Origin: Arthrobacter agilis
GTDB taxonomy: Bacteria; Actinomycetota; Actinomycetes; Actinomycetales; Micrococcaceae
DNA: 64,000 nucleotides
Direction of reading: 5' to 3'
Assembly (NCBI RefSeq): GCF_030816075.1
Contig: NZ_JAUSXO010000001.1
Location: 2,356,001 to 2,420,000, forward strand
Both the position numbers and the translations under genes were made by a program. Each line of letters opens with the position of its first letter. Positions within the stretch are counted from its first letter, which is position 1. Under the pieces are notes generated by a model. It was not told where the DNA came from and did no database searches. It saw nothing but the letters and a program-made list of their open reading frames with translations. Below are positions 9,592-41,523 of the stretch, one piece after another.

Positions 9592-9639
9592 GCGAGCTCC
9601 AGGGGTAGTCGGGGTGAACGGGGTTACCGGGGTGATCGG

Positions 9640-13585: not shown

Positions 13586-13654
13586 CAGTCTGATCCGGGA
13601 CCAGCTTGTCCGCGCTCTATCTTCGCTCATCGAAGCCGTGAAAGGATGCACCCC

Positions 13655-15054: not shown

Positions 15055-17625
15055 TCAGTTCAGTGTGGCGAGGACCGCCGACCCCGCGTATCCGAGCTGG
15101 ACCCGGGCGTCGTCCGACACAGTGCCCGGTTTCGTCTGCTCCAGCCGGTCGAGGAACTTCTGCAGGGCACGGGCCGCATTGCCGGACTGGTCCCGCTCCA
15201 CGGCGCGCTGGGCCTGGTCGAGCGAAGCGCGCAGCTGCTGCGCGGCCGGGCCGGACACGCCGCCTCCTGCAACGGCCTGCTCCAGCTGTCGCTGCAGGGC
15301 GGGGAGCGCACCGGGCAGGAAGGCGTCCGGGACGGGCACGTCCGTGAAGTCGGTATCCGACGCCAGGTAGAAGCTGGTGTAGGCCGGCTGGTTGTAGGCC
15401 GTGTTCTGGCGGGCGATCTCCGCGCGGTACTGCGGATCGTGCATCAGGGTGTACAGCTTCCGGTCGGTCACCTCGGTGCTCATGAAGATCCGGATGGCGG
15501 AGCTGTCCGCCGTCCGGACGAGCAGCTCCTCGCGCCAGTCGCCGAGGACATCCGCAACGAGCGACGGGTTGCCCTTGGTGCCGTTGTTCGTCCGCGTGTC
15601 GGTCGCGGTGAGGAGGCGTCCGCGCCTCGCGTCGTCGATGGTGGTGGACTGGTTGGCCGTGCCGTTGACGAGCTGGGTGGTGCCATCGGCGGCCCACCGG
15701 ATGCTCATGTTCGTGCCCGGGCCGCTGCCCGGAAGGAGCTGTCCCGACGCCGAACGGAGCCCCACGGCCCAGTTCTCGATACCGCGGACCGAGGGATCGA
15801 TGTCACCGATCATGCCGCGGCCGGTGTCCTTGCCGGTGTAGCCGCCGAACAGGACCTCGCCGTTCGATGCGTCCCGCATGGCCCAGCCGTAGGGCGCACC
15901 CGTCGCACCCTCGTGCACGGAGAAGATCTCCTGGCCCGGGCGGTCGGGGTCGATGTCGGTGACGTGGATCGCGTCGCCGTGGCCCAGCTTCGCCTCCGTG
16001 CCGGGGGCGGCACTGCCGGCGGGGAGGGTGTCGAACGAGCTGTAGAGCAGCGAGCCGTCGTCGTCGATGGTGGCGCTGCCGTAGACGATCTCCTGCCGGC
16101 CGTCGCCGTCGACGTCCGCGGCACTCAGCGAGTGGAAGCCCTGCCCGGACAGCGCGCCGAACTCCTCGCTGCTGCCCCTGCCGCCGTGCGGGCCGTCGTT
16201 GAACGGGTTGGACATGGGCACGTGGCCCGAGTCGACGGCCCAGTCCTGGACGAGGTGCTCCCCGTCCCAGGTGTAGGCGACGACGTTGGCCCGCGTGTAG
16301 TAGCCCCGGGCGAAGACGGCCGACGGGTTCTCGCCGTCGAGATAGGCGACACCGGCCAGGAACCGGTCCACGCGATTGCCGGGCTCGATGCGCGCCATGG
16401 CGTAGTCCCCCCACAGCAGACCGTCGTCTCCCCGGCCCGGCTCGTAGGGGACGGTTTCGAGTTCGGCGCCGGTGGCTCCCTCGAACACGCTCAGGTATTC
16501 CGGGCCGTCGACGATGAAGCCCTCGAAGGCGCGGAGGTTGTTCCGCGCGCTCCGGGACGGGGCGTAGACGTCGATGAAGTAGTCCGCCATCGCGCGGGCA
16601 TCGGCGTCGGACAGCGGGTAGTCGTAGCGCTGCGCGATCCCGAAGGCCTCCTCGAGCGTGGCGGGCCAGTTCCCTGCAGCGACCTCGGGGTGGTCCTGCC
16701 AGTCCCTGAACATCCCGACGACGTGCTCGTAGTACCCGGCGGCACTCAATCGGTAGTCGTCCGTATCCGTGTAGCCGGCGGCGAGGTCGGCCTCCGGCAA
16801 CATCACGTAGCGCTCCGAGGTGATTGCACCGTCGGGTCCGTAGGTGGTCGTCTTCGTACCGGGCGCCGTCTTCAGCATCAGTTCGGACCGGCCGTCGCCG
16901 TCGAAGTCCGACACCATGAACTGCGTGTAGTGGGCGCCGGAACGGATGTTGACGCCGAGATCGATCCGGCTCAGCAGGCGCCCCTCCGCCGTGTAGGTGT
17001 CGATGTAGGTGTTGCCCGTGTAGCCGATCTGCGAGACGTCCTTCGAGTTCGAGGGATCCCACTTCACGAAGTACTCGTAGGCGCCGTCCCCGTCGACATC
17101 GCCGACGCTCATGTCGTTCGCCGCATAGGTGTAGGCCTCGCCCGTCGGCGTCACGCCGTCGGCCGGCCTGGTCAGCGGCAGGTCGGTGTACGCCTGCGTC
17201 CAGGGCGTGACCTCGGCACTCAGCTCCACCTCCACGCCGTTCACGACGGCGCCCACGCTGTACCGTGCAGCGGCGGCGGCCCCCTCCCCGGTCACGGCCG
17301 CATCGAGGTAGTTGGTGCTGTCCGTGACGGTGGCGACGGCTTCGCCGTTCCGGTAGACCGTGAAGTCCGTGCCCGTGAGGCCGTCCGACGTCGCGCCGGA
17401 CACCTCGCCGGCCTTGAGCCGCCAGCTGAGGAACACGCCCTGCGGCGTCGCGGCGGCCACCAGCCCCCGGTCCAGGTACTCCAGGTGCACTCCCCCGATC
17501 GGAGCGGTGTTGCCGGCCCCCTGGCCCTGCGCCATGGCGGGGACGGCGAGACCGCTGAGGGTGAGGAGGGTGCCCGTGGCGAGGGCGACGCAGGTTGAGA
17601 CCGCGGTTTTCTTGGCCGAACTCAT
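15055..17625 (-). CDS. Secreted rhamnogalacturonan lyase, PL11 family, with C-terminal FIMAH-like domain
   Basis: Extracellular enzyme of 856 residues that cleaves the rhamnogalacturonan-I backbone by beta-elimination. A Sec signal (MSSAKKTAVSTCVALATG, cleavage after AMA near residue 32) comes first, then a beta domain, then a propeller with repeated calcium-binding loops such as DVDGDGAYEY and DFDGDGRSE, and ADVDGDGRQE. This is the architecture of Bacillus YesW/YesX. The last 90 residues are helical and resemble a FIMAH domain. No LPXTG or membrane anchor was seen. The second of two adjacent ATGs was chosen for its seven-base spacing from AAAGGA. A promoter and a LacI-type operator lie directly upstream. 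Confidence 0.9.
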   Translation of the reverse strand: MSSAKKTAVSTCVALATGTLLTLSGLAVPAMAQGQGAGNTAPIGGVHLEYLDRGLVAAATPQGVFLSWRLKAGEVSGATSDGLTGTDFTVYRNGEAVATVTDSTNYLDAAVTGEGAAAAARYSVGAVVNGVEVELSAEVTPWTQAYTDLPLTRPADGVTPTGEAYTYAANDMSVGDVDGDGAYEYFVKWDPSNSKDVSQIGYTGNTYIDTYTAEGRLLSRIDLGVNIRSGAHYTQFMVSDFDGDGRSELMLKTAPGTKTTTYGPDGAITSERYVMLPEADLAAGYTDTDDYRLSAAGYYEHVVGMFRDWQDHPEVAAGNWPATLEEAFGIAQRYDYPLSDADARAMADYFIDVYAPSRSARNNLRAFEGFIVDGPEYLSVFEGATGAELETVPYEPGRGDDGLLWGDYAMARIEPGNRVDRFLAGVAYLDGENPSAVFARGYYTRANVVAYTWDGEHLVQDWAVDSGHVPMSNPFNDGPHGGRGSSEEFGALSGQGFHSLSAADVDGDGRQEIVYGSATIDDDGSLLYSSFDTLPAGSAAPGTEAKLGHGDAIHVTDIDPDRPGQEIFSVHEGATGAPYGWAMRDASNGEVLFGGYTGKDTGRGMIGDIDPSVRGIENWAVGLRSASGQLLPGSGPGTNMSIRWAADGTTQLVNGTANQSTTIDDARRGRLLTATDTRTNNGTKGNPSLVADVLGDWREELLVRTADSSAIRIFMSTEVTDRKLYTLMHDPQYRAEIARQNTAYNQPAYTSFYLASDTDFTDVPVPDAFLPGALPALQRQLEQAVAGGGVSGPAAQQLRASLDQAQRAVERDQSGNAARALQKFLDRLEQTKPGTVSDDARVQLGYAGSAVLATLN

Positions 17626-17642
17626 CATTGAATCCTTTGATT

Positions 17643-17656
17643 GGAAAACGCTTTCC
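17643..17656. promoter_or_regulatory. LacI-type operator upstream of the PL11 lyase
   Basis: GGAAAACGCTTTCC has perfect 5-bp arms. It begins six bases downstream of the lyase -10 box and so would cover the transcription start, the same arrangement as at the importer promoter. Confidence 0.7.
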
Positions 17657-23562: not shown

Positions 23563-24531
23563 CTAGGGCCGCGCGGCTTCGGCCGGTCCCCCGGCGTGCT
23601 CTGCTCCCGCGACTCCCGCTGCATCGACGAAGGCGGAGTCCGGCATCCGTCCGTCGGCGACGAGCAGGGACCAGCCCCAGTCGAACGTCTCGCCCGCGCC
23701 GAGGCGCAGTTCCGCGTGGAAGAACGGTGCGGCGCACAGCATGGGAGTGCCGGAGCTGCGGACGAACCACGGCGAGAGTCCGCCCGGGTTGCCCGGCGCC
23801 GGCACCATGAGCACCGATGCGGTGGCCGACCGGAGCCCCAGCCAGGCGCGTCTGCTGCCCATGGCGTCCTCCTCGCTGACGGACCCGGCGTCACCGGACG
23901 TCACGCGGAAGGACCCGGTCGGGGAGCCGGGACCACCCGATCCGACCGCAGCGCCGGCGACGATGTCGGCGCCGTCGAACGACGGTGCCAACCGGAGGAA
24001 GAAGCCCCCGTACCCCGCGTTCGGCCGACCGGCCGTCGTCGGGCTCCCGAACGCGACCACACCCGCGCTCGTGTTGATCCACCGGCTCCGCACCGAGGTG
24101 AGGACCCAGTCCGCACCGCCGGCGCGGACGGTCTCCGCATCCCACGTCCGCTCCTCGTGCAGGAACGCGCTCCCGTCCGCCGCGCACCACTCGAGCCGCT
24201 GCAGCACACCGGCGTCCGCGGGGGCGGTGGCGCCCCGCTGGGACCCGTTGTTCGGCAACTGCACATAGCCCTGCCCGTCGCTGTAGGTCGGTCCGCCCCA
24301 GAGATTGACCGGGTGCCGTTGGCCTGCGACCGCGATGGTGGACACCGCGATGCCGAGGCCCCAGTGCCAGGGGTGGTCCGCCGGCGCGTAGTCGCTGACG
24401 ATGCCCCCGCCGGGCGTCGACACCGGATGGAGGAACGGGCGGGGTGAATGCTCGGCGGGCTCTCCCCCGCCGTCGTGCAGGACGCCGGCGAGCCGGCCGT
24501 CCGCGGTCCGGACCGGCGTCGGACCGGTCAC
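23563..24531 (-). CDS. DUF6807 (PmoA-like) protein
   Basis: A soluble 322-residue protein with no signal peptide. The sequence matches the DUF6807 group, often labelled PmoA-like: an early HPVSTPGG turn, DHPWHWGLGIAV, VNLWGGPTY and a late LRLGAGETFDWGWSLLVADG. The family is uncharacterised but commonly neighbours Gfo/Idh/MocA oxidoreductases, as here. The GTG start shares four bases (GTGA) with the stop of the oxidoreductase, so the two proteins are made together. I infer a role in the same sugar pathway; the reaction is unknown. Confidence 0.75.
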   Translation of the reverse strand: MTGPTPVRTADGRLAGVLHDGGGEPAEHSPRPFLHPVSTPGGGIVSDYAPADHPWHWGLGIAVSTIAVAGQRHPVNLWGGPTYSDGQGYVQLPNNGSQRGATAPADAGVLQRLEWCAADGSAFLHEERTWDAETVRAGGADWVLTSVRSRWINTSAGVVAFGSPTTAGRPNAGYGGFFLRLAPSFDGADIVAGAAVGSGGPGSPTGSFRVTSGDAGSVSEEDAMGSRRAWLGLRSATASVLMVPAPGNPGGLSPWFVRSSGTPMLCAAPFFHAELRLGAGETFDWGWSLLVADGRMPDSAFVDAAGVAGAEHAGGPAEAARP

Positions 24532-25691
24532 GCCGCGGGTCCGTCCGGGCGGGCCTCCGGGCGGCCCTCGACGACCGGCGCCGTGAGGGCGCCGCGCACT
24601 GCGGGGTCGGCGAGGTCCGCCCTCGAGATCCAGCGGCCCTCGCGGACGGAGGCGTACATGGCGGTGACGATCTCCAGTGCGCGGGCCGGATGACCCACGA
24701 TGCCGGGCATGCCGCGTCCGGCCAGCAGCGATCCGTAGATCTCGGCGAACAGGGCATCGTGCCCGCTCGGGACCTCCTGGTCGGGCAGTGCCCACGACGC
24801 CGCCGTCTGCTCGTCCACATGGGGTGCCGGTGTGATCCTCCAGTTCGCGTGCCCGTGGCCGTAGAGGTGCTCCAGCTCGATCGTCGCGTTCGCGGTGTCG
24901 ATCCGCAGGAGGCTCGACTCCCGCGGCGCGAGGACCGTGGTCACCACGGAGGCGACGGCCCCCGACGCGAAGACGAGGGACGCGTGGGACAGGTCCTCCG
25001 TCTCGACGTCCCGACCGAGCCGCCACATCGTGGCGTGGACGGCGGACCACTCGCCCAGCAGGTAGGCCAGCAGGTCCACCTGGTGGCTGCCGTGGCTGAG
25101 CGTGGTGCCGCCTCCCTCGGTGGCCCAGGTACCGCGCCAGGGAACGGCGAAGTACTCGGCCGTGCGGTACCAGTTCGTCTGGCACAGCGCCGAGAGGGTC
25201 CGCCCGAAGGCACCCGAGTCCAGCAGCCCCTTCACGTGGGCCGCAGCCGTTCCCGAGCGCTGCTGGAAGACGACGGCGAGGCCGCGTCGGGCGGCGCGGC
25301 CGACCTCGACCATGGTGTCGAGCTGGGTGAGGCTCAGGGCTGCGGGCTTCTCGACCACCACGTGGGCTCCCGCCCCGAATCCTGCGGCCGTCTGTTCCGC
25401 ATGACCGCCGGGCGGCGTGCAGATGTGCAGCACGTCGACGGGCACGTCCGCAAGCATGTCCTCGAGCGATGCGTGGCGCGAGTCCACGCCGTACGCCTCG
25501 GCGAAGGCCGCGAGGTGCTGCTCCGAGGGATCCGCGGCCGCGACCAGTTCCACGCCGGGCAGGAGGCGCAACGCCCGGGCATGGAGGTGGGCCACGCCGC
25601 CGGTTCCCAGGATGGCCGCCCTGAGTGGCGTGGCCGAGGAGGCGGTGGACGCGGCGGCTGGGCTCGGCAGGGGCACGGGGACCTCCATCAT
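24528..25691 (-). CDS. Gfo/Idh/MocA-family oxidoreductase
   Basis: NAD(P)-dependent sugar oxidoreductase of about 387 residues. The dinucleotide fold begins AAILGTGGVAHLHARALRLL, followed by the EKP-type motif VVVEKPAALSLTQL and the long sheet of the C-terminal domain with GGGTTLSHGSHQVDLLAYLLG. Two adjacent ATGs (25691, 25688) are possible starts and neither has a clear ribosome site; about 25 residues precede the fold. It is divergent from lacI with a LacI-type operator between, and overlaps the DUF6807 gene by four bases. The substrate is unknown. Confidence 0.87.
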   Translation of the reverse strand: MMEVPVPLPSPAAASTASSATPLRAAILGTGGVAHLHARALRLLPGVELVAAADPSEQHLAAFAEAYGVDSRHASLEDMLADVPVDVLHICTPPGGHAEQTAAGFGAGAHVVVEKPAALSLTQLDTMVEVGRAARRGLAVVFQQRSGTAAAHVKGLLDSGAFGRTLSALCQTNWYRTAEYFAVPWRGTWATEGGGTTLSHGSHQVDLLAYLLGEWSAVHATMWRLGRDVETEDLSHASLVFASGAVASVVTTVLAPRESSLLRIDTANATIELEHLYGHGHANWRITPAPHVDEQTAASWALPDQEVPSGHDALFAEIYGSLLAGRGMPGIVGHPARALEIVTAMYASVREGRWISRADLADPAVRGALTAPVVEGRPEARPDGPAA

Positions 25692-25722
25692 CGGCAGGGT
25701 TGCGGTCTTCGGAACCCTAACA

Positions 25723-25738
25723 GAGAAAGCGCTTACCC
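25723..25738. promoter_or_regulatory. LacI-type operator between the oxidoreductase and lacI
   Basis: The core AAGCGCTT (25727-25734) is a perfect palindrome. Read on the minus strand, the 15 bases TGGGTAAGCGCTTTC are identical to those in the operator of the oxidoreductase-DUF993 operon at 29293. A weak promoter (GATTGG, 17 bases, TAGGGT on the minus strand) has this site in its spacer. Confidence 0.75.
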
Positions 25739-25848
25739 AATCGGGGTGGCGGACGTCGCCGCCCGCCGGAGCCGTGCAAGAATGAGCCTTTCCGCAGTTC
25801 GCAGGGCGCGGCCCGAGGCTACTGCCCCCATCATCAGGAGTGCACGCG

Positions 25849-26898
25849 ATGTCTGCACCGGCAAGCAAGAGTCCCGCGACACTGCACGACGTCGCCCGGG
25901 AGGCGGGCGTCTCCCTCGCGACGGCGTCACGGTCCCTGAACGGCAGCGCGCGCAAGGTGAACGAGGCCTACCGGCAGCGCGTGGTGGAGGCGGCCCAGCG
26001 GCTCGGCTACACCACCAATCTCTTCGCGCAGGCCGTGGCCAAGGGCAGCACCACCACGGTGGCCCTGCTCGTGGCCGACATCGCGGACCCGTACTTCTCC
26101 AGTATCGCGGCCGGCGTGATCGATGCGGCGAGCGAGGAGGGGCTCGTGGTGACGATCGCCGTCACGGGCCGCAACGCCCAGCGTGAACTCGACACGGTCC
26201 GGGCCCTGCGCGGGCAGCGTCCCCGCGTTCTGATCCTGGCGGGCTCCCGGACCACCGGGTCCGCCTTCGAGGAGCACCTGCGGGCGGAGCTCTCCTCCTT
26301 CGAGGACACGGGCGGGAAGGTCGCCTTCATCAGCCAGGACGCAGCGCCGTTCGCGACCGTCCTGCTGGACAACCGCGGAGGCGCGCACGACCTCGCCGTC
26401 TCCCTGGCGGGGCTCGGCTACCGCGACTTCGCCGTCATCGCCGGACCCTCCGAGATCAGGACCTCCGAGGAACGCCTGGACGGCTTCACGGCGGGACTCG
26501 CGGAGCACGGCATCTCCCTTCCCCCCGAGCGCGTCGTCCACGCCGACTTCACGCGCGACGGCGGCTACCGCGGCACGCAGGAGCTGCTGGCATCGGGAGC
26601 GCACATGGACCTGGTGTTCGCCGCGAACGACGTCATGGCCGTGGGCGTCGTCTCCGCGCTGCGTGACGCCGGGATCGCCCCGGGTGAGGGGATCGGCGTG
26701 GCGGGCTACGACGACATCCCGACGGTCCGGGACATCACGCCCGCCCTGACCACCGTGCGCATCCCCCTCGAGGACGTCGGACGGCGCGCCCTCCAGCTCG
26801 CCACGGGGTCGGCGTACGACGGCGGCGCCGACAGCGGCGCCGGCCCGACCCCCATCACCACGGAGACGATCATCCGGGGCAGTACACCGCGTCGCTAG
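25849..26898 (+). CDS. LacI-family transcriptional regulator
   Basis: Repressor-type regulator of 349 residues. The helix-turn-helix and hinge occupy about residues 10-60 (TLHDVAREAGVSLATASRSLNG, then RVVEAAQRLGYTTN), followed by a periplasmic-binding-protein-like sensor domain with the usual ADIADPYFSSIAAG and GVAGYDDIPTVRDITPALTTV. AGGAG lies eight bases before the ATG at 25849; a GTG three codons earlier overlaps it. It is divergent from the oxidoreductase-DUF6807 operon, and a matching operator precedes the operon at 29345, so both are probable targets. It is the only LacI protein in the window, and could also act on the pectin-locus operators (inference). Confidence 0.92.
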   Translation: MSAPASKSPATLHDVAREAGVSLATASRSLNGSARKVNEAYRQRVVEAAQRLGYTTNLFAQAVAKGSTTTVALLVADIADPYFSSIAAGVIDAASEEGLVVTIAVTGRNAQRELDTVRALRGQRPRVLILAGSRTTGSAFEEHLRAELSSFEDTGGKVAFISQDAAPFATVLLDNRGGAHDLAVSLAGLGYRDFAVIAGPSEIRTSEERLDGFTAGLAEHGISLPPERVVHADFTRDGGYRGTQELLASGAHMDLVFAANDVMAVGVVSALRDAGIAPGEGIGVAGYDDIPTVRDITPALTTVRIPLEDVGRRALQLATGSAYDGGADSGAGPTPITTETIIRGSTPRR

Positions 26899-26907
26899 CA
26901 CCGGACC

Positions 26908-27132
26908 TCACAGGGGCAGGATCGGCCCCGGGTCGGCGTTCCGGGCGGCGAGCTTCGCGACATCGTCCACCGGCAGTTCGGCGACCTCGGCGACGACCTC
27001 GATGTCCTCGCCGTGGCTGAGCGCCTCGGTCACGGCTTCCTTCAGGACCAGTTCGGCGCGGTCGAGCTCGAACTCGACGTCCTCCTTGTCAGCTGCTGCG
27101 ACGCGGATCTTCTGCAGGTCATCGTTCGTCAT
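26908..27132 (-). CDS. Small protein of unknown function
   Basis: A 74-residue, mostly helical, acidic protein beginning MTNDDLQKIRVAAADKEDVE. A repeating hydrophobic pattern (ELVLKEAVTEAL, VAEVAELPVDDVAKLA) would fit a small helical bundle or a helix-turn-helix, but no domain is recognised. It converges on lacI, with nine bases between the two stops. Codon use is like its neighbours. Confidence 0.6.
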   Translation of the reverse strand: MTNDDLQKIRVAAADKEDVEFELDRAELVLKEAVTEALSHGEDIEVVAEVAELPVDDVAKLAARNADPGPILPL

Positions 27133-27508
27133 GGCGTTGCGGGTCCCTCACTTCCTGGCTCGACGGCATCGACGGCGGCACACGCGCTCCGGAGGGCCTC
27201 CGGAGGATCGTCCGGACTACGGTGCCGGGTGACATCGTCGCGATCATCCTAACCAGACACCGGTCTGCAGGACATGGAGGGCGGGCGACGAGTACCGTGC
27301 ACCGCGGGTGGACCGGCACCGGACCGGGCCGGGCCGTCTCCCCGGCCTCCCTGCAGGATGTCCGGTCCAACAACCCCTGTGTTCCGGCACCCGATCCGCT
27401 CGCGCCCGGCTAGGATGGGGGCAGCGGATCGGCGGCAACGTGCGATCGTGGTCTAGCAGAAGGCCCGTGGCGCCGGAATCACATCCGGCATGACGTCCGA
27501 GGCTACTG
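27133..27508. other. Gap of 376 bases with no gene seen
   Basis: Between two divergent genes. It contains a TAGGAT box (27411-27416) that could be the -10 of a promoter for the GAF-ANTAR gene with a leader of about 90 bases. Two copies of CTGCAGGA occur 80 bases apart. No RNA gene was recognised. Confidence 0.35.
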
Positions 27509-28240
27509 ATGGACCTATTTCCCCCCTCCAACGAGTTGGGCGCGACGCTCGGTCGCATCCGCGGGCTGCTCCTCACGCAGGAGACGGCGCAGCACGCCGT
27601 GGATCTCCTCGCCGAGGTCGCACAGGAGACGACACCCAATGCGTCGGGCGCGGGCGTCTCGCTCATCCACGAGTCGCAGCGCACCAGCGTGGGTGCGACG
27701 GACGCACTCGTCCGCACCGCGGACGACCTCCAGTACACCCTGTCCGAGGGTCCGTGCCTGACGGCGTGGTCCACGCGGATGCCGGTGACGATCGAGGACA
27801 CGGCCGCGGACACGCGGTTCCCGCGGTGGAGTGCGGCGGCGGCGGAGGCGGGCGTGCGGTCCTGCTTCAGCGTCCCCCTCCTGAGGGGCCACGACTCCCT
27901 GGGCGCCATGAAGGTGTACTCGACCCTCCCCGCCGCCTTCGACGACGCCGACCGCGCGCGCCTCACGAACCTGTCGATCGCCGCCTCCGCCCTGCTCGGC
28001 CACGTGCAGACCTCGGAGACGTCGACCCGGATCAGCAGCGAACTGCGGGAGTCCCTGCGCTCGCGCGATCTGGTCGGGATCGCGAAAGGGGTCCTGATGG
28101 CACGTGAAGGTCTCACGGAGGCCGAGGCGCTCGCAGCACTGACCGCGCGCGCCCGCAGCACGGGGGTCCCGTTCCGGCAGCTCACCGCCGACATCGTGAA
28201 CGGCCACGGGGACGCCGGGACCAGGGATGCGTTCCGATGA
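27509..28240 (+). CDS. GAF-ANTAR regulatory protein
   Basis: A 243-residue cytoplasmic regulator. Residues about 20-165 form a GAF domain (LLAEVAQETTPNASGAGVSL, then TLSEGPCLTAW, FPRWSAAAAEAGVRSCFSVPLL). The C-terminal 60 residues are an ANTAR domain (LRSRDLVGIAKGVLMARE, then AEALAALTARARSTGVPF), which binds paired hexaloop RNA hairpins to prevent termination (family knowledge). The signal sensed by the GAF domain is unknown, and I did not find a clear two-hairpin target nearby. The stop overlaps the start of a 97-residue protein, suggesting a partner. Confidence 0.87.
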   Translation: MDLFPPSNELGATLGRIRGLLLTQETAQHAVDLLAEVAQETTPNASGAGVSLIHESQRTSVGATDALVRTADDLQYTLSEGPCLTAWSTRMPVTIEDTAADTRFPRWSAAAAEAGVRSCFSVPLLRGHDSLGAMKVYSTLPAAFDDADRARLTNLSIAASALLGHVQTSETSTRISSELRESLRSRDLVGIAKGVLMAREGLTEAEALAALTARARSTGVPFRQLTADIVNGHGDAGTRDAFR

Positions 28241-28530
28241 CGTTCCCCTACTCCGAGGAACAGCGGGCGCTGATCAACGCGGCCGTCGTCGAGTCCGGCT
28301 TCTCGGCGGGCGAGGTGTGGCTCCACTACTTCTCGATGAGCGGCGAGGTCGACGAGTACGAGGTGGAGGCGTACCTGGTGGGCCTGATGCCGATGCCCGC
28401 CCTCGACTGCGACCTGCTCGCCCTCGCCGTGAACGAGCTCATTGACGGACTGCCGCCGAGGAGGCGCGCACCGTTCAGCGATGAGCTCGCCCGGGCGCAC
28501 GCCGGAGCCGGGGACGCCCGATCGGGGTGA
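28237..28530 (+). CDS. Unknown protein coupled to the GAF-ANTAR regulator
   Basis: A 97-residue acidic protein starting at an ATG that shares four bases (ATGA) with the stop of the ANTAR gene. The first 75 residues look folded, with aromatic-rich helices (FPYSEEQRALINAAVVESGF, VWLHYFSMSGEVDEYEVEAY); the tail is Arg/Ala-rich. No domain recognised. Coupling suggests work with the regulator. Confidence 0.65.
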   Translation: MTFPYSEEQRALINAAVVESGFSAGEVWLHYFSMSGEVDEYEVEAYLVGLMPMPALDCDLLALAVNELIDGLPPRRRAPFSDELARAHAGAGDARSG

Positions 28531-28547
28531 CTGTCGGACCTGCGGCA

Positions 28548-28553
28548 TACCCT
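28548..28553 (+). promoter_or_regulatory. -10 box (TACCCT) of a leaderless promoter for the first paralogue
   Basis: Six bases separate TACCCT from the ATG at 28560. No ribosome site and only a weak -35. Confidence 0.4.
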
Positions 28554-28559
28554 CGTCGC

Positions 28560-28847
28560 ATGGCAGAACGACCGGGGTGGCACGGCATCCCACCCAGCGC
28601 TGACAGGTACGTCCCACCGCTCCAGCTCGACGCTCCTCCGGGCGGCATCACGGAGCCCGTGCGATCGCCCGCACTGTGGGTGGACCTCGACTACCCCGAC
28701 GGCTCCCGCCGCACCCGGAAGGGGTTCGCCATGGCCTGGACGGACACGGCCGTCCGGGCCCAGTGGATCGAGTACTCCCGGGCGCGGGAAGCGTGGGTCG
28801 ACGCCGCACGCTGCCGGCGTCGGGACCTGACGACCCAGGCGGCGTAA
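28560..28847 (+). CDS. Unknown protein, first of two tandem paralogues
   Basis: A 95-residue soluble protein with no recognised domain. It shares most positions with the gene 98 bases downstream: GWHG[IL]PP, PLQL-x-AP-x-GGITE, PALWVDL-x-YP and GFAMAWT, then AQW and AREAWV. The spacing of Trp residues suggests a compact beta fold. The basic C-terminus (CRRRDLTTQAA) differs from that of the paralogue. Probably leaderless. Function unknown. Confidence 0.68.
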   Translation: MAERPGWHGIPPSADRYVPPLQLDAPPGGITEPVRSPALWVDLDYPDGSRRTRKGFAMAWTDTAVRAQWIEYSRAREAWVDAARCRRRDLTTQAA

Positions 28848-28890
28848 CCGCCGGGGAGCCTCGCTCCCGGGCTTCCCACCGGGGCCCTCG

Positions 28891-28896
28891 TAGAGT
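28891..28896 (+). promoter_or_regulatory. -10 box (TAGAGT) before a short leaderless frame
   Basis: TAGAGT is six bases before an ATG at 28903, the spacing seen at other leaderless genes here. Confidence 0.4.
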
Positions 28897-28902
28897 GGGC
28901 GC

Positions 28903-28953
28903 ATGGACAAGCCCACCCCGTGCATCGCGGTGCACGCAGGCGCGCGTGGCTAG
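28903..28953 (+). CDS. Possible 16-codon leader frame overlapping the second paralogue
   Basis: From the ATG at 28903 a frame of 16 codons ends at TAG 28951-28953, five bases inside the next coding region, in a different phase. It could be a leader peptide that couples translation, or the true start of the paralogue separated from it by a one-base error. Only the promoter spacing supports it. Confidence 0.3.
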   Translation: MDKPTPCIAVHAGARG

Positions 28954-29245
28954 GGCCGCCGGCTGGCACGGCCTCCCGCCGACCACGCATCGGTTCGTCG
29001 CTCCGCTCCAGCTCGAGGCGCCCACCGGGGGCATCACCGAATCCGCCTCCCCCGCACCGGCGCTCTGGGTGGATCTCGAGTATCCCGGCGGCGTCCGGCA
29101 GACCGTCCGGGGTTTCGCCATGGCATGGACCGCCTCGGCGGTCCTCGCCCAGTGGGTCGAATTCTCCATCGCCCGCGAGGCGTGGGTGCGCCCGGACCAG
29201 TGCACGCGGCGCGAGATCCCGCGCCGTCCGGGTCCGGACGACTGA
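28946..29245 (+). CDS. Unknown protein, second of two tandem paralogues
   Basis: About 99 residues from the GTG at 28946, the only plausible in-frame start close to the conserved AGWHGLPP opening. It is about 60 percent identical by eye to the upstream paralogue across GWHG, PLQLEAP-x-GGITE, ALWVDLEYP, GFAMAWT and AREAWV. There is no clear ribosome site; a leaderless ATG at 28903 in another frame overlaps the start. Function unknown; a local duplication made the pair. Confidence 0.62.
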   Translation: MARAAGWHGLPPTTHRFVAPLQLEAPTGGITESASPAPALWVDLEYPGGVRQTVRGFAMAWTASAVLAQWVEFSIAREAWVRPDQCTRREIPRRPGPDD

Positions 29246-29262
29246 CCGTCCGTCTGCCCTTA

Positions 29263-29291
29263 TTGTCACGCCCTCCTTCTTCCCCTACACT
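29263..29291 (+). promoter_or_regulatory. Sigma-70 promoter of the oxidoreductase-DUF993 operon
   Basis: TTGTCA (29263-29268) and TACACT (29286-29291) are separated by 17 bases. The LacI-type operator begins two bases later. Confidence 0.72.
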
Positions 29292-29292
29292 C

Positions 29293-29309
29293 TGGGTAAG
29301 CGCTTTCCA
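29293..29309. promoter_or_regulatory. LacI-type operator of the oxidoreductase-DUF993 operon
   Basis: TGGGTAAGCGCTTTCCA is centred on AGCGCT and covers the expected transcription start. Its first 15 bases are identical to the site beside lacI at 25723, pointing to one shared repressor. Confidence 0.8.
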
Positions 29310-29344
29310 GAACGGCGTAACCCCCCCGGAACCAAGGAGTATCG

Positions 29345-30532
29345 ATGTCGACGAGGACAATTGGGATCATCATGAACGGCGTCTCCGGACGCATGGGATA
29401 CCGCCAGCACCTGGTCCGTTCCATTCTCGCGATCCGCGACCAGGGCGGTGTCCTCCTCTCCGACGGCACCAAAGTCCAGGTCGAACCGATCCTCGTCGGT
29501 CGGAACGAGGCCAAGCTCGCCGAACTCGCTGCGAAGCACGGCATCGAGCACTACTCCACCGACCTCGACAGCGTCCTCGCGGACCCGACCTGGGAGATCT
29601 ACGCCGATTTCCTCGTCACCAAGGCACGCTCCGCAGCGATCCGGAAGGCGATCGCGGCGGGCAAGGCCATCTACACCGAGAAGCCGACCGCCGAGACCGC
29701 GGAGGACGCCCTCGAGCTCGCCAATCTGGCCGAGGCCGCCGGCATCAAGAACGGCGTGGTGCACGACAAGCTGTACCTGCCCGGCATGCAGAAGCTCAAG
29801 CGGCTCGTGGACTCCGGTTTCTTCGGCCGCATCCTCTCCGTCCGCGGCGAGTTCGGCTACTGGGTCTTCGAGGGCGACTGGCAGGATGCGCAGCGCCCCA
29901 GCTGGAACTACCGGGCGGAGGACGGTGGCGGGATCGTCGTCGACATGTTCCCGCACTGGAGCTACGTCCTGGAGAACCTCTTCGGGAAGGTCGAGTCCGT
30001 CTACGCCCGCGCCGTCACGCACATCGACGAGCGCGTCGACGAGCAGGGCCGCCCCTACCGCGCGACGGCCGACGACGCCGCCTACGCGGTGTTCGAGCTG
30101 GAGGGCGGCATCGTCGCCCAGCTCAACTCCAGCTGGACCGTGCGCGTGAACCGCGACGAGCTCGTGCAGTTCCAGGTGGACGGCACGCACGGCTCGGCCG
30201 TCGTCGGGCTGTTCGGCTGCAAGATCCAGCCGCGCAACGCCACCCCGAAGCCGGTCTGGAACCCCGACCTCGAGGAAACCCACGACTACGACGCCGACTG
30301 GATCGACGTGCCCACCAACGAGGTGGTCGAGAACGGCTTCAAGACGCAGTGGGAGGAGTTCCTGCGGCACGTGCTGGAGGACGGCCCGCACCCGTACGAC
30401 TTCCTCGCCGGCGCGCGGGGCATGTACCTCGCGGAGCAGGGGCTGGAGAGCTCACGCACCGGACGCCGCCTCGACCTAGAGGACGTGCGCACCACGGCAC
30501 TCCCCCTCGAGGAAGCGGTCACGTCGGCATGA
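29345..30532 (+). CDS. Gfo/Idh/MocA-family oxidoreductase
   Basis: NAD(P)-dependent sugar oxidoreductase of 395 residues. The first strand and loop read TIGIIMNGVSGRMGYRQH, the EKP motif is IYTEKPTAETAEDAL, and the C-terminal sheet includes EDGGGIVVDMFPHWSYVLENL. The GVSGRMGY loop differs from the usual GxGxxG, a mark of a particular branch. AAGGAG lies five bases before the ATG. It is the first gene of a three-gene operon whose members overlap by four bases each. Substrate unknown. Confidence 0.88.
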   Translation: MSTRTIGIIMNGVSGRMGYRQHLVRSILAIRDQGGVLLSDGTKVQVEPILVGRNEAKLAELAAKHGIEHYSTDLDSVLADPTWEIYADFLVTKARSAAIRKAIAAGKAIYTEKPTAETAEDALELANLAEAAGIKNGVVHDKLYLPGMQKLKRLVDSGFFGRILSVRGEFGYWVFEGDWQDAQRPSWNYRAEDGGGIVVDMFPHWSYVLENLFGKVESVYARAVTHIDERVDEQGRPYRATADDAAYAVFELEGGIVAQLNSSWTVRVNRDELVQFQVDGTHGSAVVGLFGCKIQPRNATPKPVWNPDLEETHDYDADWIDVPTNEVVENGFKTQWEEFLRHVLEDGPHPYDFLAGARGMYLAEQGLESSRTGRRLDLEDVRTTALPLEEAVTSA

Positions 30533-31683
30533 TCACGCTCGTCGATGCGGCCGGGGCCACCTCCGCCGTCGAACTGAATCCGGCGCCGGCATTCTCGAAG
30601 CCCTCGGCGCCCCTGCGCAGCCGCACGGTGTACGCCGCGGCGCACGTGGTCCCCCGGACCACGGGGGAGAACGTCCCCGGCTCACCGGCGGATCTCGACT
30701 GGGATGCGACCCTCGCGTTCCGGCACCACCTGTGGTCGTGGGGCCTGGGTGTGGCCGATGCCATGGACACCGCACAGCGCAACATGGGGCTCGACGCCGC
30801 TGCGACGCGCGAGCTGATCGCGCGCAGCGCCGCGGAGGCCCGCTCGGTGAACGGCGCACTGGTGGTCGGGGTGAACACCGACCACGTCGACGACGCCGTC
30901 ATCGGGCTCGAGGCGGTCATCGACGCCTACAAGGAACAGCTCCACCTCACCGAGGACGCCGGCGCCTCCGTCGTCCTCATGGCGAGCCGCCACCTCGCAC
31001 GTGCCGCCCGCACCGCCGAGGACTACGAGAGGGTGTACTCGGAGGTTCTGGCCGCCGCCGGCGCCCCCGTGATCCTGCACTGGCTCGGCAGCGCCTTCGA
31101 CCCGGAGCTCGGCAGCTACTTCGGCTCCCCGGACACGGACGCGGCGTCGTCGACCCTCCTCAAGATCATCGCCAACGCGCCCGACAAGGTGGCCGGCGTG
31201 AAGATGAGCCTGCTGAACGCGGACTCCGAACGGGCGGTCCGGTCGCAGCTCAACGCACCGGCCCGCATGTTCACCGGGGACGACTTCAACTACGTCTCGC
31301 TCATCGGCGGGGACGCCTCGGGCTACTCCGATGCCCTCCTCGGCGCCTTCGCGGCCCTCGGCCCCCATGCCTCGGCAGCGGTCCAGGCACTCGACGCCGA
31401 CGACCGCGCGGCCTACGAGCGGATCCTCGGACCCACCGAAGCGCTGTCACGCCAGATCTTCTCGGCGCCCACGTTCTACTACAAGACGGGCGTGGCCTTC
31501 CTCAGCTGGCTCAACGGACACCAGGCCGGCTTCGGCATGGTCGGTGGCCTGCAGGCCGCGCGGAGCCTGCCGCACCTGTCGGAGATCGTCCGTCTCGCCA
31601 ACGCGTGCGGGGCCCTCGAGCAGCCGGAGCTCGCCCGGGAACGCTGGCACGCCCTGCTGGCCGTGAACGGGGTGGCAGCATGA
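30529..31683 (+). CDS. DUF993 family protein (aldolase-like TIM barrel)
   Basis: A soluble 384-residue protein of the DUF993 family, related to dihydrodipicolinate synthase-type barrels by annotation habit rather than proven chemistry. Recognisable stretches are HHLWSWGLGVADAMDTAQRN, ILHWLGSAFDPELGSYFGS, KVAGVKMSLLN with a lysine at the position expected for a Schiff base, and TGDDFNYVSLIGGD. It overlaps both neighbours by ATGA. With an oxidoreductase before it and an isomerase after it, a carbon-carbon cleavage of an oxidised sugar is plausible (inference). Confidence 0.78.
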   Translation: MITLVDAAGATSAVELNPAPAFSKPSAPLRSRTVYAAAHVVPRTTGENVPGSPADLDWDATLAFRHHLWSWGLGVADAMDTAQRNMGLDAAATRELIARSAAEARSVNGALVVGVNTDHVDDAVIGLEAVIDAYKEQLHLTEDAGASVVLMASRHLARAARTAEDYERVYSEVLAAAGAPVILHWLGSAFDPELGSYFGSPDTDAASSTLLKIIANAPDKVAGVKMSLLNADSERAVRSQLNAPARMFTGDDFNYVSLIGGDASGYSDALLGAFAALGPHASAAVQALDADDRAAYERILGPTEALSRQIFSAPTFYYKTGVAFLSWLNGHQAGFGMVGGLQAARSLPHLSEIVRLANACGALEQPELARERWHALLAVNGVAA

Positions 31684-32570
31684 GCACGCCGAACGGGCGC
31701 CTGTCCATCAACCAGGCCACCATCAAGTACGCCCCGCTCGCCGACGCCCTCCGGGTGACCGCCGACGCCGGGATCACCAGTATCGGACTGTGGCGCGACT
31801 CCGTGCAGGCCGCGTCACTGCCGGAGGCCGGGCGGCTGCTCGCGGACTCCGGGCTGCGCTTCTCCAGCCTGTGCCGGGGCGGGTTCTTCACCGTGCCGGA
31901 GGGCCGCGCACGCCGTGCGGCCATGGACGACAACCGGCGGGCCATCGAGGAGGCCGCGCACCTCGCGGCCTCGGGTGCTCCCGGCTCCGTGGCGGTCCTC
32001 GTCATGGTCGCCGGCGGGATCCCCCAGGGATCGCGGGACCTCGCGGGTGCCCGCGCCATGGTGCAGGACGCCCTCGCCGAACTGGTGCCCGATGCCGAGG
32101 CGGCGGGAGTGACGCTCGCCCTGGAGCCGCTCCATCCCATGTACGCCTCGGACCGCGCCGTCATCTCGACCCTCAAGCAGGCCCTCGACCTGTCCGCGCC
32201 CTTCTCCCCCGCGGCCGTCGGCGTCGTGGTCGACACCTTCCACGTCTGGTGGGATCCCGAGCTGTTCCCGCAGATCGAACGGGCAGGCGCCGAAGGCCGG
32301 ATCGCGAGCTACCAGGTGTGCGACTGGACGACGCCGCTCGCGGCGGACGTCCTGCTCTCGCGCCACTACCCCGGGGACGGCGTCATCGATTTCGCCGCCA
32401 TCACCCGGGCGGTGCAGGCCGCGGGATACGCCGGCGACATCGAGGTGGAGCTCTTCAACCAGGACATCTGGGACACTCCCCCGGCCGAGGCCGTCGCGCG
32501 CACGGTCGAGGGCTACGAGGCCCACGTCGCAGCACACCTGGGGCACCTGAGCGGGGACCTCCGCCGGTAG
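31680..32570 (+). CDS. Sugar phosphate isomerase/epimerase-like TIM barrel
   Basis: A 296-residue barrel of the AP-endonuclease-2/xylose-isomerase-like family, cytoplasmic. Metal-ligand positions are visible: Glu in LALEPLHPMY, Asp and His in VVDTFHVWWDPELF, and the late Glu in DIEVELFNQDIWD. Members isomerise or epimerise sugars, or eliminate from 3-keto-glycosides. It is last of the LacI-controlled operon and overlaps DUF993 by four bases. The specific reaction is unknown. Confidence 0.86.
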   Translation: MSTPNGRLSINQATIKYAPLADALRVTADAGITSIGLWRDSVQAASLPEAGRLLADSGLRFSSLCRGGFFTVPEGRARRAAMDDNRRAIEEAAHLAASGAPGSVAVLVMVAGGIPQGSRDLAGARAMVQDALAELVPDAEAAGVTLALEPLHPMYASDRAVISTLKQALDLSAPFSPAAVGVVVDTFHVWWDPELFPQIERAGAEGRIASYQVCDWTTPLAADVLLSRHYPGDGVIDFAAITRAVQAAGYAGDIEVELFNQDIWDTPPAEAVARTVEGYEAHVAAHLGHLSGDLRR

Positions 32571-38864: not shown

Positions 38865-40037
38865 TCAGCGCGAACAGGTGTCGCCCCGGCCGTCCGCCGG
38901 CTCACCGCCCCGATCTTCACCCTGGCCCGGAACGGCCGGACGGCCCGGCGGCGAGGCGTCGGACTGGCGGGCCATGGTCGCCGTCGCCCGGCGCAGGGCC
39001 TCCGTCGGGACGTCGGACACCAGGTCCTCGAGGAAGGCGTACCGGCGCAGCCACTGGCGCCGCACGCCGTCGCGCCCGGCATTGACCCGATGCCACCAGT
39101 CGGCGATGTCCCCCCACCCCGGCGCCGCCAGGGAACCCCCGACGTGCTGGACCGAGAGCGACGCGCAGAGGTTCGCGAAGCGGAGGCGTTCCGCGAGCGG
39201 GAAGCCCGCGAGATCGCCCATGACGAAGGCCGCCCCGAAGCAGTCGCCAGCACCCGTCGGGTCGTATGCGGACACGGGGAGCGCCGGCACCCACTCCTCC
39301 TCCCCCGTCTCCGAATCGATCGCCATCGCCCCTTGCTGGCCGACCGTCACGACGGCCACGGGCACGCGGTCCGCGAGCGCGTACAGGGCGGCCCACGGGT
39401 CGTCGGTCCGGGTGTAGGCCATCGCCTCGGCGGCGTTGGGCATGAACGCATGGAAATGCTCGAGCGAGGCCAGCGTCTCGGGCGCCCACTCCCCGGCCGC
39501 GTCCCAGCCGACGTCGCCGAACAGCTTGGTGCCGGCGGCGGCGGCCGCGCCGGCCCAGGGCTCCACCTCCCGCCCGAGGCTGACGATGGCGGCACGGCAG
39601 GACGGCGGCGTCCCGATCAGTTCGGTGGCGCTCAGCGGGGAGGGGTGCCCGTGCGTGATCATCGAGCGGTCCTGATGCACGGAGAGGGACACTGTGACCG
39701 GCGAATGCCAGCGCCCGAACACGCGCGACCGGGAGAGGTCGACGTGCTCCTGGTCCTGCAGCACGTCCCAGTTGAACTGGCCGTAGCCGTCGTCCCCGAA
39801 GGCTGCCGCGAGGGTGGTGCGCAGGCCCAGTCGGCTCGCGGCGATGGCCTGGTTGGCGATTCCGCCCGGCCCCGACCCCATGCCCTCGGTCCACACCTCC
39901 GTGCCGGGGGACGGCAACTGCTCGAGGCCCGTGAAGATGATGTCGAAGAACACCTGTCCGGCGAGCAGGAGGTCGAATTCGGGTCCGTCGGGGCTGCGCG
40001 TGGCCGCCAGCGGATCGAAACGGTGCTGTTGGAGCAT
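38865..40037 (-). CDS. PfkB-family carbohydrate kinase
   Basis: Sugar kinase of the ribokinase fold, 390 residues. The N-terminal signature is LLAGQVFFDIIFTGLE with GSGPGGIANQAIAASRLG, and the ATP/catalytic signature is SAYDPTGAGDCFGAAFV with its catalytic Asp. The C-terminal 60 residues past the fold are Pro- and Gly-rich and unusual. A TATTCT box seven bases before the ATG suggests a leaderless start. Divergent from the GH4 gene; substrate unknown. Confidence 0.87.
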   Translation of the reverse strand: MLQQHRFDPLAATRSPDGPEFDLLLAGQVFFDIIFTGLEQLPSPGTEVWTEGMGSGPGGIANQAIAASRLGLRTTLAAAFGDDGYGQFNWDVLQDQEHVDLSRSRVFGRWHSPVTVSLSVHQDRSMITHGHPSPLSATELIGTPPSCRAAIVSLGREVEPWAGAAAAAGTKLFGDVGWDAAGEWAPETLASLEHFHAFMPNAAEAMAYTRTDDPWAALYALADRVPVAVVTVGQQGAMAIDSETGEEEWVPALPVSAYDPTGAGDCFGAAFVMGDLAGFPLAERLRFANLCASLSVQHVGGSLAAPGWGDIADWWHRVNAGRDGVRRQWLRRYAFLEDLVSDVPTEALRRATATMARQSDASPPGRPAVPGQGEDRGGEPADGRGDTCSR

Positions 40038-40044
40038 GTACGGC

Positions 40045-40050
40045 AGAATA
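40045..40050 (-). promoter_or_regulatory. -10 box (TATTCT) for the PfkB gene
   Basis: On the minus strand TATTCT is followed by seven bases and the ATG at 40037. The -35 is not clear. Confidence 0.45.
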
Positions 40051-40152
40051 CTTCCCAGGAGCCGGTCGCGGGGCGACCCGCAGCCCGAAAGCCCTGTTTC
40101 GAGCCCCGGTAGCAGCAGCCCGGCGACACCCACGACGAAAGCAGGACGAACC

Positions 40153-41523
40153 TTGGCCCAGACGGTCGGAACCGGTGCGCGCCTCGTGATCGTGGGCGGC
40201 GGAGGGTTCCGTGTGCCGCTGGTGTACCGCGCGCTCGCGGAGGGCCCGTTCGCCGGGCTCGTGTCCGACGTCGTGCTGCTCGACGCCGAACCGGAGCGCG
40301 CGCGGGCCATCGCACGGGTGCTCGGGGGCCTGCCGCACACGGGTGGTGTTCCCCGGCCGTCGGTGCGCGTCGCGGACCGCCTCGAGGACGCGCTGCCGGG
40401 CGCCGACGTCGTCTTCGCCGCGGTGCGCAGCGGAGGGACCGAGGGGCGCATCCTCGACGAGCGGGTGGCCCTGGCCGCGGGGCTCCTCGGGCAGGAGACC
40501 GTCGGCGCCGGCGGGATCTCCTACGCCCTCCGCTCCATCCCCGACATGATGCAGGTGGCGCGGGCCATGCGCGACGTCGCGCCGGACGCGTGGCTCGTCA
40601 ACTTCACGAACCCCGCCGGGATGGTCACCGAGGCGCTGTCCGGGATCCTGGGTCCGCGGGTCGTCGGGATCTGCGATTCGGCCTCGGGCCTCGTGGCGCG
40701 CGCCGCACGGGCCGCCGGAGTCGACCTGCACGGCTCGCTGGCCGGCGTCGACTACGTGGGACTGAACCACCTGGGCTGGCTCCGCGGGCTCCACGACGGC
40801 GGCACGGACCGCCTCCCGGGGCTGCTCGCCGATCCGCTGCGTCTGGCCGGCTTCGAGGAGGGGCGGCTCTTCGGCCCGGACCTGCTCCGGATCCTCGGTG
40901 CACTGCCCAACGAGTACCTCTTCTACTACTACTTCCACCGGGAGGCGCTCCGCTCCATCGGCGCTGCGGACCGGACGCGCGGGGAGATCCTGCGGGACCA
41001 GCAGCGGGACCTGTACCCCCGGCTCGTCGCCGCCGAGGACCCCGCCGCCGTGTGGGAAGCGGCGCGGCTCGAGCGGGAGTCCGGCTACCTCGCCGAGGCC
41101 CGGACCGACGACGAGGAACGCGACGAGGCGGACCTCGCCGGCGGCGGCTACGAACGCGTCGCACTGCAGGTCATGCGGGCGCTGCTCACGGGCCGGCGTG
41201 CGGAGCTGATCCTCAATGTGCGCAACGGATCGGCGTTCCCCGGACTGCCGGCGGATGCGGTCGTCGAGGTGCCGTCCGTCGTGGACGCGGCCGGGGCGCG
41301 TCCCCTGCCCGCGGCACCCCTGACCGCCCACCAACTCGGGTTGATGGCGGCGGTCAAGGCCGTCGAGCAGGACACGGTGCGTGCGGCGGTGCACCGGGAC
41401 CGCGATGCCGCCCTCCGGGCCCTCGCCGGGCACCCGCTGGTCGACTCCTTCCACGCGGCGAGGGCGGCGCTCGCCGGCTACGAGGAGGCGTTCCCCGCGT
41501 TGAAGGCCTCCTGGGCCGGCTGA
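40153..41523 (+). CDS. GH4 family 6-phospho-beta-glucosidase-like enzyme
   Basis: NAD- and metal-dependent glycosidase of family GH4, 456 residues. It begins with a dinucleotide loop LVIVGGGGFRVPLVYRAL and carries LVNFTNPAGMVTEAL, the metal-binding Cys in VVGICDSASG and the His in GLNHLGW. GH4 enzymes oxidise C3 of the sugar before cleavage. A TTG start at 40153 is supported by AGGA six bases upstream; the next candidates lie inside the fold. The last 46 bases overlap the end of the convergent aldolase gene. Confidence 0.87.
   Translation: MAQTVGTGARLVIVGGGGFRVPLVYRALAEGPFAGLVSDVVLLDAEPERARAIARVLGGLPHTGGVPRPSVRVADRLEDALPGADVVFAAVRSGGTEGRILDERVALAAGLLGQETVGAGGISYALRSIPDMMQVARAMRDVAPDAWLVNFTNPAGMVTEALSGILGPRVVGICDSASGLVARAARAAGVDLHGSLAGVDYVGLNHLGWLRGLHDGGTDRLPGLLADPLRLAGFEEGRLFGPDLLRILGALPNEYLFYYYFHREALRSIGAADRTRGEILRDQQRDLYPRLVAAEDPAAVWEAARLERESGYLAEARTDDEERDEADLAGGGYERVALQVMRALLTGRRAELILNVRNGSAFPGLPADAVVEVPSVVDAAGARPLPAAPLTAHQLGLMAAVKAVEQDTVRAAVHRDRDAALRALAGHPLVDSFHAARAALAGYEEAFPALKASWAG

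Follow-up and report, generated by a model that had tools for sequence, protein, structure and literature searches.

The DNA analysed here (the window) is a stretch of 64,000 nucleotides of the Arthrobacter agilis genome (contig NZ_JAUSXO010000001.1, positions 2,356,001 to 2,420,000), which is a single contig of 3,857,229 bases (3.86 Mb). Two operons in it encode two Gfo/Idh/MocA oxidoreductases (GfoA and GfoB), a DUF6807 protein, a DUF993 protein and a xylose-isomerase-like protein (TIM), and a LacI-family regulator gene lies between the two. These five genes are probably the part of a single LacI-controlled regulon that breaks down fragments of rhamnogalacturonan-I (RG-I) inside the cell. 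The case for a regulon, as read from sequence, is strong; the catabolic route and its substrate are proposals. Gene content, operators, co-occurrence, gene fusions and protein folds were computed. The core genes and their control sites are located at the following window positions:

25725-25739, minus strand: operator before GfoA-DUF6807, exact 15-mer TGGGTAAGCGCTTTC, kept in 10/10 genus regions with GfoA
25691-24528, minus strand: GfoA, Gfo/Idh/MocA oxidoreductase (Pfam; nearest solved relatives 3q2i/3q2k), its start perhaps a few codons further downstream
24531-23563, minus strand: DUF6807 protein with a galactose-mutarotase-like fold (PF14100, 1.2e-45; predicted local distance difference test, pLDDT, of the model 84.6; fold matches)
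25849-26898, alternative start 25840, plus strand: LacI-family regulator (Pfam; gene call)
29263-29291, plus strand: promoter-like TTGTCA-17-TACACT directly before the GfoB operator (one found against 0.1 expected; a consensus match only)
29293-29307, plus strand: operator before GfoB-DUF993-TIM, exact 15-mer TGGGTAAGCGCTTTC, kept in 19/20 genus regions
29345-30532, plus strand: GfoB, Gfo/Idh/MocA oxidoreductase (Pfam; relative of 3oqb, 1.7e-149)
30529-31683, plus strand: DUF993 protein, DapA-type TIM barrel with invariant K225 (PF06187, 1.9e-162; 4dnh, 3.4e-103; fold; alignment)
31680-32570, plus strand: TIM, xylose-isomerase-like protein (AP_endonuc_2, 1.5e-35; relative of 3ju2, 7vpf and 3qc0)

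All six core proteins, LacI included, are assigned by Pfam; the DUF993 protein scores 541 bits for PF06187 (cut-off 24) and the DUF6807 protein 156.7 bits for PF14100 (cut-off 27). The gene calls rest on a home-made codon score, so that gene starts are approximate and some genes were missed; DUF993 itself went uncalled in five of the loci shown and in L162. The initial annotation described two operons with four-base gene overlaps and a common 15-base operator, and this description is confirmed: both 15-mers are exact, and the GfoA/DUF6807, GfoB/DUF993 and DUF993/TIM overlaps are four bases each. The spacing given there as 4 kb is actually 3.57 kb between the operators, with lacI at 25840 (or 25849)-26898.

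At up to two mismatches, the 15-mer TGGGTAAGCGCTTTC is found only at these two sites genome-wide (three sites for its backwards-pattern control). The symmetric core GGAAAGCGCTTTCC has eight genome sites at the same tolerance, against four for the reversed-pattern control, and half of the eight are inside the window, before an importer/AXE1 esterase pair, a PL11 lyase gene, GfoA and GfoB. Random placement would be expected to give 1.9e-5 such four-site clusters within 15.8 kb. A fifth site is located ~150 nt before a 1671-residue gene containing a second PL11 match, while two of the remaining three are within called genes and the third is 35 nt upstream of one, in a short gap. Because the same motif is found at 13540, before the importer/esterase pair, and at 17643, before the PL11 gene, the feature extends beyond the two operons, and the sites before importer/AXE1 and two PL11 genes thus provide both an importer and an RG-I context. 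The initial annotation had included no importer and had taken the substrate to be a sugar; an importer operon ~12 kb off carries the operator motif, and part of an RG-I fragment is a better reading of the substrate. We infer that one LacI protein serves all of these sites. The additional predicted members are:

7614-9600, minus strand: GH42 beta-galactosidase gene, apparently broken by a frame change (Glyco_hydro_42M on 7614-8348; reading frames)
9640-10278, minus strand: DUF624-like membrane protein (PF04854, 14.3 bits only, under the cut-off)
10275-11111, minus strand: ATP-binding cassette (ABC) permease 2 (gene call; clusters with annotated sugar ABC permeases of L159)
11192-12058, minus strand: ABC permease 1 (gene call; same clustering)
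12199-13491, minus strand: ABC-importer solute-binding protein (SBP_bac_1, 3.4e-24; present in 23/38 genus genomes)
13540-13553 (matrix: 13539), no strand assigned: operator-like site between the importer operon and AXE1, two mismatches, found before the binding-protein gene in 20/20 relatives fetched
13646-14638, plus strand: AXE1-type esterase, divergent from the importer operon (PF05448, 5.4e-100)
15055-17628, minus strand: PL11 rhamnogalacturonan lyase (RGL11_C, 5.2e-169; RGI_lyase, 1.5e-21)
17643-17656 (matrix: 17642), no strand assigned: operator-like site before the PL11 gene, one mismatch, found in 18/18 relatives' regions holding PL11

The sites at 13539 and 17642 were also scored by a matrix built from the genus sites. 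The only sigma-70-like promoter found in 25600-29420 is that of GfoB, whose operator (29293) starts two bases past the last base of the -10 hexamer, a position at which a LacI repressor would block initiation. In the GH42 gene of the importer operon, the frame shifts near 8.4-8.5 kb, through a genuine break or a sequencing error. The 1671-residue gene is part of a second RG-I-type cluster (L227, G000:C1:3599500-3612500), which contains importer-like genes, its own LacI gene and a two-mismatch operator before the gene with the PL11 match.

DUF993 is present in 24 of 38 genus genomes, and regions from 20 of the 23 other DUF993 genomes form the genus sample. The GfoB-DUF993-TIM triad is contiguous in all 20. 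GfoA, DUF6807 and LacI adjoin it in 10 of the 11 regions of one subtype, and a LacI of 43-46% identity adjoins GfoB in 7 of the 9 regions of the other. The genus operator counts listed above (10/10 before GfoA, 19/20 before GfoB, the sole miss being L036) allowed up to three mismatches, or four with the core kept. The importer binding protein (E 1e-60) occurs in 23 of the 38 genomes, all within the 24 with DUF993 (Fisher 1.6e-9, shared ancestry ignored). Of the 22 other importer regions, 20 were fetched; the motif precedes the binding-protein gene in every one, and PL11 is found in 18, each with the motif within ~150 nt of the start of the PL11 match. In several genomes of the second subtype, the importer carries the motif even though tens of kilobases separate it from the triad or it is on a different contig. 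The same six-gene set is found in Arthrobacter cheniae (L075). A record titled Vibrio cholerae strain 35D (L076) contains an Arthrobacter-type locus at 81-94% identity and is very probably misnamed. A second DUF993 copy with two internal stop codons (G251:C1:3088476-3089381) and a DUF993 gene in two pieces (G017:C61:106327-107644) suggest loss in some genomes.

Across 245 family genomes, DUF993 is found in 86 and DUF6807 in 65, all of them within the 86; none of the 159 DUF993-free genomes has a DUF6807 match (Fisher 2.8e-41, shared ancestry ignored). The two genes are at most 12 kb apart in 31 of the 65, and more than 12 kb apart or on different contigs in 34. A Gfo/Idh domain and DUF6807 form one protein in Curtobacterium (L126, L134) and Paeniglutamicibacter (L147), in all three cases tested, so that GfoA and DUF6807 would act on the same molecule; the longer DUF6807 proteins of L129, L131 and L231-L233 suggest, by length only, further Gfo fusions. 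PL11 is found in 28 of the 245 genomes (one under the cut-off); 26 of those, among them the one with the weak match, also have DUF993. The triad adjoins genes for a ~700-residue DUF6807 protein and a giant PL11 in L231-L233, three genomes of another genus.

The initial annotation had named a lack of conserved linkage in relatives as one of the results that would refute it; the linkage held, not only in the genus but also more widely. In the best 80 loci of one scan of genome contigs (L075 and L076 very probably also being in the genus sample), the triad is contiguous in 77; the exceptions are L087, L141 and L143, and in L087 and L141 the DUF993 match begins less than 500 bases from the locus end. 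In L077-L154, 68 of the 74 usable loci have an operator of at least 16 bits no more than 250 nt from GfoB, compared with 29 of 758 control genes; the matrix was trained on the genus sites, and the controls exclude 13 suspected-regulon gene clusters and genes within 600 nt of GfoB. The two operons are thus conserved together as a unit, and its control by LacI is probable. In Naasia (L084), ~12 kb hold in order genes for a DUF624-like protein, two permeases, a binding protein, AXE1, DUF6807, GfoA, LacI, GfoB, DUF993 and TIM, and the importer operator there matches the one in the window exactly (GGGAAAGCGTTATCCC). A homologous importer is also contiguous with the other genes in Demequina (L080), and clusters like that of Naasia occur in Microbacterium (L089, L117, L124); because these clusters hold the importer together with the other genes, the missing importer can be considered found. 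The triad is also present in Alphaproteobacteria such as Sinorhizobium, where one gene, of the enolase type in L163, is interposed between DUF993 and TIM. A PF06187 search of 14 control genomes, Bacillus subtilis included, gave no match in any. Two large neighbours (L123:590-2275 and L090:2363-4141) have no Pfam match over the cut-off.

The nearest solved structure to DUF993 is 4dnh, an uncharacterised protein. After 4dnh, the AlphaFold model (pLDDT 81) matches dihydrodipicolinate synthases, 2-keto-3-deoxyarabonate dehydratase (one such match with hydroxypyruvate bound) and sialic acid aldolases; it has the fold of a DapA-type TIM barrel (Foldseek 1e-9 range; template-modelling score by target 0.71-0.83 among the matches listed below 4dnh). 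K225, in a GVK motif, is invariant in 11 of 11 aligned proteins. The DUF6807 model (pLDDT 84.6) has a galactose-mutarotase fold, and residues P50, D52, H53, W55 and H56 are invariant in 12 of 12; its sequence gave a single match, at E 0.65, against solved structures. The best solved relatives of GfoA are 3q2i and 3q2k, which we take to be WlbA, a UDP-sugar-uronate 3-dehydrogenase, and further down are DgpA and a glucuronide 3-dehydrogenase. GfoB is closest to 3oqb and TIM to 3ju2, 7vpf and 3qc0, entries named only oxidoreductase, uncharacterised protein, xylose isomerase or sugar isomerase. Since 3ju2 is SMc04130 and 4dnh is SMc04132, both of Sinorhizobium meliloti, the locus numbers place the solved relatives of TIM and of DUF993 close to each other; SMc gene names appear in an expression table in the accessible part of PMC12542648. 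Three assignments of the oxidoreductases were rejected: levoglucosan dehydrogenase (NF052479; GfoA 68.3 and GfoB 66.9 bits, cut-off 650), disaccharide 3-dehydrogenase of the BT_2159 family (NF058563; GfoB 26.5 bits, cut-off 650; GfoA not listed) and inositol 2-dehydrogenase (TIGR04380; 77.8 and 60 bits, cut-off 355).

Neighbours elsewhere bear on the fate of the carbon. Among the 109 sequences clustered (the window plus 108 loci), 24 have a glycerate kinase and 11 a 2-hydroxyacid dehydrogenase, one representative of each being Pfam-confirmed; glycerate kinase is also annotated in 8 of the 16 plasmid loci opened. It is a frequent neighbour elsewhere that was not seen in this window. Some plasmid loci have tripartite ATP-independent periplasmic (TRAP) or tripartite carboxylate transporters beside the triad, and others enolase-type genes. 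Read together, these neighbours would point to a route for a sugar acid, with C3 acids and glycerate as end products.

From the above we infer a substrate, an order of steps and a set of products. The PL11 lyase, which has a signal-peptide-like start, would cut RG-I outside the cell, and the ABC importer at 10.3-13.5 kb would take up the fragment, to be trimmed by the AXE1-type esterase and the GH42 beta-galactosidase (its gene being apparently broken here). GfoA would then oxidise a sugar hydroxyl, probably of the uronyl residue, and DUF6807, its mutarotase-fold partner, would act on the oxidised sugar. The sugar acid so formed would pass to GfoB, TIM and DUF993 for oxidation or reduction, isomerisation and aldol cleavage, and the C3 acids produced would feed central metabolism, in many relatives through the neighbouring glycerate kinase. 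LacI would occupy the operators, the one at GfoB being immediately downstream of the -10 box, and be released upon binding a pathway intermediate. An undescribed catabolic route, as the initial annotation had supposed, remains the best reading of these sequences.

Two of the components expected of an RG-I system are found: a rhamnogalacturonan lyase, in the PL11 of the window and the second PL11 match of the genome, and an oligosaccharide ABC importer with the same operator, as predicted from site and gene. As for the third, an unsaturated rhamnogalacturonyl hydrolase of GH105, PF07470 (GH88/GH105) gave no match in this genome, other (alpha/alpha)6 hydrolases such as DUF2264 not having been searched. 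Nor did the KduI-family and RhaA-family models find a match in this genome; among the 38 genus genomes the GH88/GH105, KduI-family and RhaA-family models match 1, 9 (some weakly) and 7 (all weakly), respectively. DUF2264 proteins less than 10 kb from the triad were seen in several genera, in L123, L103, L106, L091, L141, L142, L146, L154 and L159 (one Pfam-confirmed, that of L159 annotated), and these are candidate uronide hydrolases in place of GH105.

A more specific version, which seems rather improbable, has the core degrade the unsaturated galacturonate released by rhamnogalacturonan lyases by a route that has not been described. GfoA-DUF6807 would replace GH105 in opening the disaccharide, TIM would act as KduI and GfoB as KduD, and DUF993 would be an unphosphorylated 2-keto-3-deoxygluconate (KDG)-type aldolase yielding pyruvate and glyceraldehyde or glycerate. 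The failure of the GH88/GH105 and KduI models to match anything in this genome is in its favour, but full KduI (five weak matches dropped) is found in 50 of 86 DUF993-positive and 17 of 28 PL11-positive family genomes. A plain displacement of KduI survives only in this version, KduI not being anti-correlated with DUF993 (50/86 against 47/159 other family genomes).

The same regulon could also serve a quite different chemistry, 3-keto glycoside oxidation, elimination, hydration and reduction as in levoglucosan and O-glycoside elimination, although we consider this doubtful. The Gfo pair would oxidise and re-reduce, DUF6807 and TIM would eliminate and hydrate, and DUF993 would be a hydratase, giving a free sugar without C-C cleavage. 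Operons of two oxidoreductases and sugar-phosphate-isomerase-like proteins do so in Agrobacterium and Bacillus smithii, according to the accessible text of PMC10628242. The presence of DgpA and a glucuronide 3-dehydrogenase among the solved relatives of GfoA, as well as the Gfo-DUF6807 fusions, would fit such a chemistry, whereas the aldolase-superfamily fold of DUF993 argues against it, the glycerate kinase and 2-hydroxyacid dehydrogenase neighbours point to C3 acids, and both oxidoreductases are far under the levoglucosan and disaccharide 3-dehydrogenase cut-offs.

Somewhat less probable again is that the triad of this regulon degrades a neutral pectin sugar (galactose, arabinose or rhamnose) instead of the uronate part. 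The Microbacterium neighbours, which include galactose genes, as read from their sequences, and genes for GH35, GH51-type, GH95 and GH127 enzymes, suggest as much, but several Alphaproteobacteria have TRAP or tripartite carboxylate transporter genes next to the triad, which favours an acid substrate. As for rhamnose, the seven genus genomes with weak RhaA-like matches all belong to the second subtype, which also has the triad, and several of the matches are near the importer; rhamnose therefore probably has its own route there.

Several observations weigh against the explanation proposed above. The core motif is of what we take to be the common LacI/CcpA type, and the second PL11 cluster has, as read from its sequences, a LacI gene of its own. 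PL11 is absent from 60 of the 86 DUF993-positive family genomes, so RG-I is the context here and not a universal one. In distant loci, the motif is rarer elsewhere than at GfoB (upstream of DUF6807 in 2/11, of GfoA in 2/5 and of binding-protein genes in 6/12). The alignment of K225 with the Schiff-base lysine that DapA-type enzymes have on the sixth strand comes from two weak profile alignments only (E 0.27 and 0.0011; probabilities 0.2% and 20.8%). Of the 16 plasmid loci opened, two are without DUF993 and only 6 have the three triad genes side by side, and several DUF993 loci carry coenzyme A (CoA)-transferase genes and no GfoB, some plasmid ones with DUF993 and TIM. That the two operons are unrelated, their generic LacI-type operator being shared by chance or through different LacI proteins, is nevertheless highly improbable: the common motif type and the separate LacI of the second PL11 cluster would allow it, but there are only eight genome sites, five of them at RG-I or core genes, and DUF6807 was never found without DUF993 in the 245 genomes, even though the two are distant or on different contigs in 34 of 65.

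In L156, L157, L161 and L162, DUF993-TIM is accompanied by CoA-transferase, ketoacyl-reductase-like and glycerate kinase genes, and in three of them by an acyl-CoA dehydrogenase gene; this setting is perhaps a CoA-dependent version of the route. Within the window, a GAF-ANTAR protein and a small protein are encoded between lacI and GfoB (27509-28530); each recurs in 13 loci of the closest genus members, although they look unrelated to the pathway. Two adjoining short reading frames at 28560-29245 encode similar small proteins of ~95-99 residues, one of which was checked and has no Pfam match. A PfkB-type sugar kinase gene and a GH4 glycosidase gene are adjacent and divergent at 38865-41523.

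Two curated families that had no known function, along with two oxidoreductases and an isomerase that have no functionally named protein among their closest solved relatives, are thereby linked to a polysaccharide context, an importer and a candidate regulator, and "function unknown" gives way to a limited set of substrates and assays. In the open-licence literature searched, a gram-positive RG-I utilisation regulon with this catabolic core was not found described; nothing was found on DUF993 or on PL11 with KduI in actinobacteria, the accessible text gave a passing mention only of DUF6807, the matches for pAO1 concern other organisms, and PDB codes led to unrelated work only. A paper on rhamnogalacturonan with Arthrobacter does not mention dihydrodipicolinate, KduI or LacI in its accessible part (PMC12844168).

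At the level of fold, DUF993 resembles the class I aldolases of the DapA/N-acetylneuraminate lyase group, and one of its lysines aligns, weakly, with the catalytic one; it is longer, and in the alignment H184 takes the place of a tyrosine of DapA. The levoglucosan and O-glycoside beta-elimination operons likewise pair Gfo-type oxidoreductases with isomerase-like TIM-barrel proteins, but DUF993 goes unmentioned in the accessible text (PMC10628242), and GfoA (68 bits) and GfoB (67 bits) are far from the levoglucosan dehydrogenase cut-off of 650. On plasmid pAO1 of Paenarthrobacter nicotinovorans (L160), a Gfo gene (62%), a DUF993 gene (50%) and a glycerate kinase gene are adjacent. pAO1 is the nicotine plasmid of this species. 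Its cluster differs in having no TIM match, in the GMC oxidoreductase, aldehyde dehydrogenase and different ABC importer beside it, and in a GntR instead of a LacI regulator. Since the triad is found in Alphaproteobacteria and a Gfo-DUF993 pair on pAO1, the route is not confined to this genus. A parallel in RG-I utilisation is with the yes/yte genes of Bacillus subtilis, in which a PL11 lyase, an ABC importer, GH42 and a DUF624-like protein are found together, along with a Gfo/Idh gene. The window shares PL11, the ABC importer, GH42 and the DUF624-like protein, a likeness at the level of gene content. Unlike the B. subtilis system, this genome is without a GH88/GH105 match, its control is of the LacI type, and DUF6807 and GfoB-DUF993-TIM are added.

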